DNA of 9,625 nucleotides from JAUWCW01 sp030609125 [NCBI: Candidatus Rokuibacteriota bacterium] (GTDB taxonomy: Bacteria > JAUVQV01), in contig JAUWCW010000052.1 in assembly GCA_030609125.1 (NCBI GenBank), positions 1-9,625 of the forward strand. Reading direction: 5' to 3'. This document shows, one piece after another, positions 6,948-9,625 of this stretch. The notes beneath the pieces were generated by a model that was given only the letters and a program-made list of their open reading frames with translations, had not been told where the DNA came from and made no database searches. Both the position numbers and the translations under genes were made by a program. Positions within the stretch are counted from its first letter, which is position 1. Each line of letters starts with the position of its first letter.

Positions 6948-7640
6948 ATGAGCAGTCAGAGGCAGGTTTTCGTGAAAATACTCATACGCAGACTGTTGAC
7001 GGGGCTTACGGTCCTCACCCTTTTCACGGTGGGCGCACCCGCCGCCTCATGCGCCATAAGCGCCGCCGAGGTTGCCCGGGGGGTGGAGGGGAAATACGCT
7101 TCCCTTCAGGACCTCTCGGCCGACTTCCGGCAGGAGAGCAGAATCGTCTCCCTGGGGCGCACCCGCATAAAAAGCGGGACCATGCGCTTCGAGAAACCGG
7201 GGAAAATGCGTTGGGACTACGACGCCCCGGAACCGCAGACCCTCGTCTCCGACGGCACTACGCTCTGGTACTTCAGGCCCGGGCAGAACCAGGTGGTTAT
7301 CCGGGACCTGGGGCGGGCCTTCACGAACCGGACGCCCCTGCTCTTTCTTTTCGGGGAGGGGAGTCTCGCCGAAGAGTTCACCTGGGAGGAAGAGGACCTT
7401 TCGGGGAGCGGCGACGGGACCTACACCCTCGCCATGCGGCCCCGCCGGGAGACCCCCGATCTGGTCGCCCTCACCCTCGAGGTCAGGGCGGGGGACTTCA
7501 GCATAGGCGCAACTGTCCTGGAGGACGCCTTCGGGAACGTCACGCGCCTGGAGTTCTCCGGGGAGGAGGAGAACCGGGGCCTGCAGGACGAGATCTTTCA
7601 GTTTGAAGTGCCGCCGGGTGCGGAAGTGATACGGCCATGA
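6948..7640 (+). CDS. lolA: LolA-family outer-membrane lipoprotein carrier protein
   Basis: Periplasmic chaperone that takes lipoproteins from the inner-membrane Lol ABC transporter and delivers them to the outer membrane. The protein has an N-terminal Sec signal peptide with hydrophobic core LLTGLTVLTLFTVGA and likely cleavage near SCA (34-36). The mature part carries the LolA signature in order: LSADFRQES (56-64), SGTMRFEKPGKMRWDY (76-91), PQTLVSDGTTLWYF (96-109) and NQVVIRDL (114-121). Near the C-terminus are FGNVTRLEF (195-203) and FQFEVPPGAEVI. Mature length (~194 aa) is normal for the family. Two starts are possible: ATG 6948 has GGTGAT in good register, whereas GTG 6972 has GAGG 9 nt upstream, gives the more typical signal peptide MKILIRR..., and fits the candidate promoter. 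The longer form is listed here. Cys35 is not in a convincing lipobox. The stop overlaps the next start (ATGA), indicating translational coupling to the GGDEF regulator. Confidence 0.9.
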   Translation: MSSQRQVFVKILIRRLLTGLTVLTLFTVGAPAASCAISAAEVARGVEGKYASLQDLSADFRQESRIVSLGRTRIKSGTMRFEKPGKMRWDYDAPEPQTLVSDGTTLWYFRPGQNQVVIRDLGRAFTNRTPLLFLFGEGSLAEEFTWEEEDLSGSGDGTYTLAMRPRRETPDLVALTLEVRAGDFSIGATVLEDAFGNVTRLEFSGEEENRGLQDEIFQFEVPPGAEVIRP

Positions 7641-9142
7641 GCAAGAGCGCCCAACCCCTGGTTCTCGTCGTCGACGACGAGCCGGACATTCTCACCCTGA
7701 ACCGCATGGTCCTGGAGCAGGCGGGATTCCAGGTCGTCACCGCCGGCAACGGGGTGGACGCCATCCAGAAGGCGGTAGACTTCACTCCCGACGTGATCGT
7801 TCTCGATGTCATGATGCCCCGCATGAACGGCTACCAGGTCTGCCGCCTTCTGAAGAACGACCGGCGGACGGCGGCGATCCCCATCATCATCTGCACCGTC
7901 AAGTCCCTCGAGACCGAGAAGCTCTATGCCTACACCTCCGGCGCCGACGAGTACCTGGTGAAGCCCTTTGAAAAGGAGGATATCGTCGCGCTGGTCCGCA
8001 AGAGCCTCAAGGGCCGCGAATACCGCCAGGGTGTCTCTCTCCAGGAGGGCGAGGTCCCGAGGACACGGACCAGCACGGACAGCATCCTCTCCGACGTCAA
8101 CAGCCTTCTTGACCGCCGGCTGATGGAGTTGACCATACTCCAGGCCCTGACCAAGACCCTGAGCAGCACCCTGGCGCTGAACGACGTGCTGCGTGAGATC
8201 CAGGCGGGGCTCCTCGGCCTGGGCTACCCGAACGCCAGGATCCTCCTGCTGAAGGAAAAGGGGATGCTCGAGGAGACCCTCCCCAGTGACTCCCCCATCA
8301 TCGTCGACAGCAGAAAGTACCCGCTCCTGTCAAAGGTCGTCGGCAGGAACGAGGTCTTCATCCTTGAAGCCGAGGAGGCAGCCCGCTCCATCCCGCTGGA
8401 TCTGCAGCAGGTGATGCACGCCCAGACGGTGCTCTTTGTTCCCATCCACGCCAAGGGCCGCCCCATAGGGCTGCTCATCGTGGAGAACACTCCCGGCCAG
8501 GCGATGAACCGCAACCAGGAGGAGTTTCTCCTGACCCTGGCGAGCCAGGCGGGGCTGGCCATCGAGAACGCCAACCTCTACGAGCGCACCCTGCAGCTCT
8601 CCATCACCGACGGGCTGACGGAAATCTACAACTACCGGTTTTTCCGCCAGCGCCTGGAAGAGGAGGTCGCCCGCTCCAAGCGCTACGGCTGCGCCCTGGG
8701 GCTGCTCATCCTGGACATAGATCACTTCAAGGGCTTCAACGACCGGTACGGCCACCTTGTGGGAGACGAGATCCTCAAGAACGTGGCGCGGATTCTCAAG
8801 GCGAACACCCGCGACGTCGACGTCGTGGCCCGCTACGGCGGCGAGGAGTTCGCGATCCTGCTGAACGAGATCGACCTCAAGGAGGCGATCGTCTACGCCG
8901 AGCGCATCCGCGAAGCCGTGGAAGACTTCATGCTGGCCCTGCCCGACGGCTCGAGGGCGGGGGTCACCGTGAGCCTCGGCGTCGCCGTCTGCCAGAGCGG
9001 AAATATTGAAGAGAAGGAGTTCATCCGCCGGGCCGATCAGGCCCTCTACCGTGCGAAGGAAATGGGCAGGAACAGGGTGTGTGTCTGGCAGCCGGAGGGG
9101 GACCATCTCTGCCCGTCCGAGAAGAGCAAAGAAGGCTCTTGA
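7637..9142 (+). CDS. Response regulator with REC-GAF-GGDEF domains; probable diguanylate cyclase
   Basis: Cytoplasmic two-component response regulator that likely makes cyclic di-GMP from two GTP. Receiver domain ~7-125: acidic pair D13/D14, phospho-acceptor D57 in VLDVMMPRMNGY, T87 and K109 (VKPF), all residues needed for phosphorylation. A helical linker (~145-180) leads to a GAF domain (~165-315), a possible small-ligand or dimer module; its ligand cannot be read from sequence. The GGDEF domain (~316-485) has DIDHFKGFND (360-369), GHLVGDE and the active-site motif RYGGEEF (399-405), an active-type variant. An RxxD inhibitory site (R392-D395) sits exactly five residues before GGEEF, so product feedback inhibition is likely. 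There is no EAL or HD-GYP domain. The start codon overlaps the lolA stop by 4 bp. No histidine kinase is present in the window, so the input signal is unknown. Domain calls are firm; enzymatic activity is inferred from intact motifs. Confidence 0.93.
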   Translation: MSKSAQPLVLVVDDEPDILTLNRMVLEQAGFQVVTAGNGVDAIQKAVDFTPDVIVLDVMMPRMNGYQVCRLLKNDRRTAAIPIIICTVKSLETEKLYAYTSGADEYLVKPFEKEDIVALVRKSLKGREYRQGVSLQEGEVPRTRTSTDSILSDVNSLLDRRLMELTILQALTKTLSSTLALNDVLREIQAGLLGLGYPNARILLLKEKGMLEETLPSDSPIIVDSRKYPLLSKVVGRNEVFILEAEEAARSIPLDLQQVMHAQTVLFVPIHAKGRPIGLLIVENTPGQAMNRNQEEFLLTLASQAGLAIENANLYERTLQLSITDGLTEIYNYRFFRQRLEEEVARSKRYGCALGLLILDIDHFKGFNDRYGHLVGDEILKNVARILKANTRDVDVVARYGGEEFAILLNEIDLKEAIVYAERIREAVEDFMLALPDGSRAGVTVSLGVAVCQSGNIEEKEFIRRADQALYRAKEMGRNRVCVWQPEGDHLCPSEKSKEGS

Positions 9143-9167
9143 CATTGGTTTTTCCTGTTGCTATTAA
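9139..9167 (+). promoter_or_regulatory. Strong sigma70 promoter overlapping the end of the GGDEF gene
   Basis: A consensus -35 TTGACA (9139-9144) is followed after exactly 17 nt by TATTAA (9162-9167, 4 of 6 consensus), with TGC just upstream giving an extended -10. The -35 box contains the TGA stop of the regulator gene. The stretch is AT-richer than its surroundings. Transcription would start near 9174 and drive the small Cys-rich/acidic gene with a leader of about 75 nt. Confidence 0.72.
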
Positions 9168-9177
9168 GAGCGTGAAA

Positions 9178-9234
9178 CGTCCGGGGCCGGGTGGAGAGCC
9201 CGTTCAGAATCCGAGGAAGGGAGGAGGCCGGACG
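9178..9234 (+). promoter_or_regulatory. Potential leader hairpin next to the Shine-Dalgarno
   Basis: CGTCCGG (9178-9184) and CCGGACG (9228-9234) are perfect complements, and the inner bases GGCC/GGCC could extend the stem with a bulge. A smaller CGGG/CCCG hairpin lies inside the loop. The 3' arm ends at the first G of the Shine-Dalgarno GGGGAGG (9234-9240), so folding could affect ribosome access. Short complements are common in GC-rich DNA; there is no match to a riboswitch class I know. Confidence 0.35.
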
Positions 9235-9248
9235 GGGAGGGAAGAACC

Positions 9249-9509
9249 GTGTGCTGCGACCTCTGCGATCTGTACGAGAAGTGCCGGGAAGTAGTCTCTC
9301 CGGAGGCGCTCTGCTGCAGCGAATGCGCCCAGATGCCGGCTTGCGGGGACAGCGCCGTTGCCGGGCAGCACCTGATGGACGACGACGAGTACGACGACCT
9401 CGACGACGAGATGGAAGACGACGACCTCGACGGCCTCTATGACGACGACCTCGACGATGACGCAGACTACGAAGAGGACGACGAAGAGGACTACGAATCC
9501 CGCCACTAG
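9249..9509 (+). CDS. Small Cys-rich (putative metal-binding) protein with highly acidic C-terminal tail
   Basis: I do not recognise this family. The 86-residue product starts at GTG, 8 nt after a near-ideal Shine-Dalgarno GGGGAGG, downstream of a strong promoter, so it is likely expressed. Residues 2-32 hold a duplicated motif CCx2Cx5C: C2, C3, C6, C12 and C22, C23, C26, C32, with each cysteine repeated exactly 20 residues later. Eight cysteines so spaced suggest zinc or iron-sulfur binding (inference). Residues 44-83 are 29 of 40 Asp/Glu, with Tyr at 48, 64, 74 and 82 and a repeated DDDLD (57-61, 65-69). This tail may bind cations or mimic nucleic acid. There is no signal peptide or membrane segment, so it is probably cytoplasmic. 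The tail is encoded by GAC-rich repetitive DNA that may vary in length between strains. It could be an independent gene or the end of the lolA transcript. Coding status likely, function unknown. Confidence 0.75.
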   Translation: MCCDLCDLYEKCREVVSPEALCCSECAQMPACGDSAVAGQHLMDDDEYDDLDDEMEDDDLDGLYDDDLDDDADYEEDDEEDYESRH

Positions 9510-9564
9510 CCCGGATGTTTCATGATATCCGCGCTCGCAGCAGATGGCTCATGAAATTTCCGGG
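9510..9564. repeat. Inverted repeat immediately after the small acidic-protein gene
   Basis: The arms are 16 nt, CCCGGATGTTTCATGA (9510-9525) and TCATGAAATTTCCGGG (9549-9564), pairing at 14 of 16 positions around a 23-nt loop. It starts directly after the TAG stop. No T-run follows (CTGGCGGCG), so it is not a standard intrinsic terminator in the + direction. It could stabilise the mRNA end, be a dispersed palindromic repeat, or be an operator. The remaining bases to the window end show only a TTTTTGTTTG tract with a very short CCG/CGG stem before it and a TTGACG that might be a -35 for a gene outside the window; neither is callable. Confidence 0.55.
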
Positions 9565-9625
9565 CTGGCGGCGTTCGGGTCCGGGGTTTCCCGCGTTTCC
9601 GGGTTCCGTTGACGGTTTTTGTTTG

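Follow-up and report, generated by a model that had tools for sequence, protein, structure and literature searches.

The locus studied here raises the question of whether a very short reading frame behind a regulatory gene encodes a functional protein, and of what kind that protein would be. The window (the whole stretch of 9,625 nucleotides that was analysed, contig C252 of the 2.3-Mb draft genome G000) carries, in this order, genes for TamB, Omp85/BamA, LolA and a response regulator-GAF-GGDEF protein (7637-9142, plus strand, assigned with Pfam), followed by the frame in question at 9249-9509 on the plus strand, which runs from a GTG to a TAG and translates into 86 aa with eight cysteines.

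The reading frame and its relatives

The 27 codons that separate the GTG at 9249 from the in-frame stop ahead of it include no ATG, GTG or TTG. The other of the two genomes searched in the window's phylum, G001, carries a syntenic orthologue: there, an orthologue of the response regulator-GAF-GGDEF gene (57% identity) is followed by a 94-aa frame (locus L021, 819-1103, minus strand) that starts with MCCDLCD and has all eight cysteines, the same offset of 20 residues and a differing acidic tail. Because this orthologue keeps all eight cysteines and the offset, we conclude from sequence comparison that the 86-aa frame is a real, conserved gene, and the more distant relatives described below agree with this. 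Elsewhere in the window, the LolA-type frame (6948-7640) and the response regulator-GAF-GGDEF frame (7637-9142) overlap by 4 nt, which suggests translational coupling, and a Val-rich antisense frame of 100 aa (9204-9506, minus strand) is a shadow of the acidic codons.

Relatives were reached through the cysteine pattern. A similarity search of the genome contigs with the window protein returned no relative, and neither did tblastn of phages and plasmids. Scanning the genome contigs for the eight-cysteine pattern in DNA gave at least 118 stretches and at least 199 in-frame rows; after a filter on the number of cysteines or on acidity, the matches listed contained seven rows at new loci, one of which is a relative, L088, in Candidatus Auribacterota bacterium RA.bin133 (the genome G389, with the same protein at the same contig place, in the phylum of G089). 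Profile A1, made of three cores, gave five matches at E<=0.01 in 386 genomes, the real ones being G000, G001, G089 and G209. With five rows, profile A3 gave nine matches at E<=0.05, four of them real, in a sample of 385 genomes whose listed members largely overlap the A1 sample; G079, with a linker three residues shorter, was new. Profile A5, with 11 rows, gave 19 matches at E<=0.1 in 386 genomes, seven of them real (G000, G001, G079, G089, G209, G221 and G350), and a single match, L088's own genome, in a set of 57 genomes (40 in the phylum of G089, three in that of G209 and 14 reached via loci of other searches). Counted by phylum, the protein was found in 7/7 genomes of G079's (profile A4), 2/2 of the window's, 2/44 of G089's and 1/6 of G209's (both A3). 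Weak profile matches at 18 loci (12 from A5, G214 from A1 and five from A3) were discarded after a frame-by-frame scan found neither a strict nor a loose double module there; as a control, the same scan found the double module in all 13 positive loci. In viral contigs the peptide pattern of the profile matched nothing, and the cysteine-pattern scans gave at least 1338 core matches, none of which, among the matches listed, lay in a frame with at most 10 cysteines. On these searches, whose profile part reached at most 448 of 97,973 genomes, the family is real, and in this sample it is rare and scattered, with 12 loci including the window, spread over four phyla by the grouping of the genome search, and proteins of 40-94 aa.

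The earlier note had called the protein unrecognised, and the libraries bear this out for the members scanned. Neither Pfam nor NCBIfam, each searched with seven members (window, G001, L088, G089, G209, G079 and G433), had a match at cut-off; PHROGs (four members) and PADLOC (three members) gave no convincing match, and a phage or defence origin was rejected on those two scans. Listings across the scanned members were weak (best E 0.19), and an 11-sequence profile found no PDB chain at E up to 10. The AlphaFold models, with a mean pLDDT of 54.5 and 63.1, were unusable.

Cysteine modules, acidic tail and flanking signals

The cysteines of the window protein lie at residues 2, 3, 6, 12, 22, 23, 26 and 32 and nowhere else, forming module 1 (CCDLCDLYEKC, residues 2-12, 9252-9284, plus strand) and module 2 (CCSECAQMPAC, residues 22-32, 9312-9344, plus strand). 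The translation confirms the two copies of CCx2Cx5C offset by 20 that had been reported, and the view that chance would hardly produce them also stands: random placement over 86 positions produced such a two-block repeat 25 times in 400,000, and 813 times in 400,000 when all eight cysteines were confined to 31 residues. The internal duplication read from this pattern finds modest support beyond the cysteines, the two modules showing a modest likeness that 117 of 5040 permuted registers equalled in a test on five representative sequences.

Both modules are present in 12/12 loci, a count that is partly by construction as the loci were found via pattern or profile, and module 1 begins at residue 2 or 3. 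The earlier note had proposed conserved cysteines, a conserved offset and a variable tail as a check: cysteines and tail behave in this way in 12/12 loci, but the offset is not fixed: five loci have 20 and the other seven 17, with 6 or 9 residues between the modules. A ninth cysteine stands at position 9 in L088 and G089, and cysteine codons alternate between TGC and TGT while the modules are kept. Proline follows the triad's second cysteine in both G209 modules and in 13 of 14 G079-group modules, and is absent from that place in the window, G001, L088 and G089; the same proline occurs in WhiB-like proteins. Of the 23 pairs compared, 22 (21 from the G079 group and one from the G089 group) combine a pN of 0.01-0.17 with a pS of 0.51-1.32, values of pS above 1 being an artefact of multiple hits. 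The remaining pair, window and G001, taken by itself shows little selection contrast, with a pN of 0.42 and a pS of 0.53 over 34 core codons.

The acidic tail of the window protein (residues 44-83, 9378-9497, plus strand) has 29 Asp or Glu in 40 residues by composition count, as had been stated, while the regular placing of its tyrosines was overstated: Y48, Y64, Y74 and Y82 are separated by gaps of 16, 10 and 8. The DNA of the tail consists of imperfect tandem repeats, which could allow quick changes of length. Across the family, tail length and net charge are 62 and -43 in G001, 54 and -29 in the window, 34 and -14 in L088, 37 and -9 in G089, 24 and -1 in G209, and 10-11 and -2 in seven G079-group loci, so that acidity is strong in the first two, moderate in L088 and G089, and near neutral in G209 and the seven G079-group loci. 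Since the tail ranges from 62 residues (-43) to 10 (-2), we regard the cysteine core of 28-31 residues as the conserved part of the family and the tail as an add-on. By the same comparison an acidic tail is not a defining family trait and, with charge and length varying in this way over loci, it cannot carry the basic function of the family. It would rather be a lineage-specific, fast-changing polyanionic arm, which may gather cations by the core or keep the protein soluble.

Upstream of the gene, a putative Shine-Dalgarno sequence, GGGGAGGG (9234-9241, plus strand), was read by eye 7 nt ahead of the GTG. The promoter of its own that the earlier note gave the gene has evidence on one scale and fails on another. 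A promoter-like TTGACA-17-TATTAA (9139-9167, plus strand), whose -35 shares bases with the GGDEF gene's stop codon, has a plain hexamer score of 10/12, reached by 1 of 500 mononucleotide shuffles; a stricter sigma-70 scan of 9000-9625 accepted no site because its -10 hexamer has to end in T, and across three loci (window, L088 and G001) that scan likewise accepted no such site. The plain score is 11/12 upstream of L088 and G089 (3/500 and 6/500 shuffles respectively) and 8/12 upstream of G001 (25/500); upstream of G209 it is also 8/12, with no excess above chance (389/500). The promoter and the expression of the 86-aa protein are predictions. Downstream, an inverted repeat that starts in the gene's last codons (9501-9573, plus strand; 25-nt arms, 84% complementary, 23 nt spacing) would form a strong hairpin, the RNA fold of 9495-9580 reaching -47.2 kcal/mol (z -5.5), which 0 of 200 shuffles equalled. 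It has no T run, and the terminator scan made no call; it may serve transcript ending or protection, or be a repeat element.

Probable metal ligands in the core

Eight invariant cysteines that form one pattern twice are best read as metal ligands, although both metal binding and the choice of metal are inferred from sequence. No export signal was seen in the eight-cysteine protein, and its thiols would therefore probably lie in a reducing compartment, as expected of a small soluble protein that is probably cytosolic. The two duplicated CCx2Cx5C half-sites would bind metal via thiolates, most likely as iron-sulfur clusters, and each CX2CX5C triad, with one more cysteine, would hold a [4Fe-4S] cluster as the triad does elsewhere. 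To this reading, a soluble metal-thiolate micro-protein with iron-sulfur at its core, we give a probability of about 0.45, a figure that covers iron-sulfur and not metal binding in general.

Iron-sulfur appears likelier than zinc, since SPASM, WhiB-like and RseC proteins all use CX2CX5C to ligate Fe-S. In the available text of these sources, CX2CX5C ligates Fe-S in the motif of the SPASM-type proteins AhbD and PqqE (PMC10452713, PMC5715301), CxnCx2Cx5C is given as the Fe-S ligand motif of WhiB-like proteins (PMC7363131), and the CX2CX5C of RseC is reported to form an oxygen-sensitive Fe-S cluster (PMC11729352), which would amount to three unrelated settings. These precedents, as far as the available text goes, and a sub-threshold WhiB match are the reasons for favouring iron-sulfur over zinc. 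That match (PF02467) covers module 1 of one G079-group protein, with E 0.53 and 11.3 bits against a cut-off of 23.6 bits, and it is absent in the other six scanned members, including a second G079-group protein. Two clusters within 28-31 residues would be tight, and one cluster or zinc fits the space better.

The family can be compared with several known systems. With WhiB-like (Wbl) proteins it shares the CX2CX5C triad with a fourth cysteine, small size, solubility and the one sub-threshold Pfam match, and the Wbl motif CxnCx2Cx5C, as defined in the available text of PMC7363131, is present twice with n = 0. It differs in having the triad twice, with the fourth cysteine directly adjacent, in a protein of 40-94 aa; the G[V/I]WGG motif of Wbl proteins is absent from the 12 family sequences, and Wbl proteins are described, in the available text of PMC6282962, as exclusive to Actinobacteria. 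The auxiliary [4Fe-4S] motif of SPASM/Twitch proteins (AhbD, PqqE) has the same triad, but is defined in what is available of PMC5715301 as CX2CX5CX3C with further cysteines after a radical SAM domain, whereas the eight-cysteine family consists of free-standing small proteins without CX3C and without a radical SAM domain. As the protein has neither G[V/I]WGG nor CX3C nor a radical SAM domain, membership of Wbl or SPASM was rejected and we place it outside both. The N-terminal cysteine motif of RseC/RnfF is also CX2CX5C, and an Fe-S cluster has been reported for RseC in the available text; RseC, however, is a membrane protein with one triad.

That the eight cysteines would instead hold one to three d10 ions, as a zinc (or copper) thiolate protein for buffering or structure, is possible but somewhat unlikely. 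Zn2Cys6 and metallothionein-like sites are all-cysteine half-sites joined by a linker, an arrangement that the duplicated half-sites recall, and the invariance of all eight cysteines in 12/12 loci suits this reading as well; yet the published CX2CX5C precedents are Fe-S in the text available, and zinc-family models went unmatched by the members scanned with Pfam. Bacterial metallothioneins and 2[4Fe-4S] ferredoxins are, in the same broad way, small and cysteine-rich or endowed with duplicated cysteine sites. All three differ from the family in cysteine spacing, profile matches being absent; the Zn2Cys6 cluster has CX2CX6C, a spacing not found in the family, which has CX2CX5C.

Neighbouring genes and the polyamine question

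Beyond the cysteine core, the gene neighbourhood offers a lead to function. At all seven loci of the G079 group the cysteine gene lies directly after speE, with speD ahead of speE in six and the contig end reached in the seventh, and a shikimate-kinase-like gene lies downstream in 7/7 (neighbours named by Pfam for the G079 copy and by eye for the remainder); the cysteine gene is predicted to be co-transcribed with speE. In both genomes of the G089 group it lies on the same strand, 36 and 42 bp ahead of a PvlArgDC frame as called. These placements would suit an accessory or regulatory factor of polyamine biosynthesis, in which the cysteine core docks on the enzymes and the tail, where present, binds polyamines; such a role is compatible with either metal, and we consider it unlikely. 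As a lead, the tie extends to two of the four groups and was picked once the data had been seen, and the group with the speD-speE link has no acidic tail. Loci of the window's phylum and of G209 have no polyamine genes beside the cysteine gene. PvlArgDC is encoded elsewhere in the window's genome (contig C185) and in G001 (contig C279), and was absent in G209 and three G079-group genomes tested. Among 40 chosen genomes, which include 29 of the 44 in G089's phylum, 22 have PvlArgDC and only four of these also have the cysteine protein; the control for this search matched three of the 14 named genomes, each of them archaeal. The double cysteine module was missing in nine of ten returned PvlArgDC loci scanned, the exception being G389, and in six PvlArgDC regions it was found in that of G089 alone. 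A search of the literature on cysteine-rich small proteins with polyamine genes, Dictyoglomus, PvlArgDC or acidic tails found nothing relevant.

Other neighbours vary. In the G079 copy, a short frame seen by eye between the cysteine gene and the shikimate kinase (L157, about 1631-1738) has the look of a micro-protein with a single membrane span. The G209 locus has an ArsR-type regulator upstream, past some small frames, and downstream a 410-aa frame that matches nothing in Pfam at E 0.01; the small basic frame directly before the cysteine gene (L183, 8382-8585, 68 aa as called) likewise has no match there at that threshold. What follows the cysteine gene in G001 (a frame at L021, 2-832, minus strand) looks secreted and of outer-membrane type, with a weak DUF2490 match (20.6 bits, below the 29.8 cut-off), and would be about 16 bp away if its start is the TTG at 802. 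A role tied to BamA, LolA or TamB was rejected, none of these being seen beside relatives elsewhere.

A thiol-redox or disulfide switch in place of a metal protein is very unlikely: vicinal CC and CxxC pairs occur in both modules, but there are eight invariant cysteines rather than one pair, and the Pfam scans gave no thioredoxin-type match. To a chance frame in GC-rich DNA we give next to no credence, since its shortness, GTG start, low-complexity tail and 100-aa antisense frame are contradicted by the syntenic orthologue, the invariant cysteines at 12 loci and a pN that falls far short of pS in all but one of the 23 pairs.

In conclusion, the window protein belongs, on sequence evidence, to a new family within a broad class already known, that of small cysteine-rich, probably metal-binding proteins. 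The structural core of the earlier interpretation is supported, whereas the metal-sensing, metal-buffering or nucleic-acid-mimic role that it put forward would be conjecture. A fuller picture, distinctly unlikely as a whole, would be an unnamed family outside Actinobacteria with two WhiB-type CX2CX5C Fe-S half-sites in about 30 residues, which would rank with the smallest duplicated Fe-S sites; in some lineages it would partner polyamine enzymes in a redox- or metal-dependent way, and in others it would bear a polyanionic, polyamine- or metal-binding tail. What the locus adds is a conserved small-protein family missing from the libraries searched. If it binds iron-sulfur, as we favour, nature would offer in it a minimal iron-sulfur peptide with a double site, useful for the study of cluster origins; should the polyamine neighbourhood prove functional, polyamine enzymes would gain a new partner.
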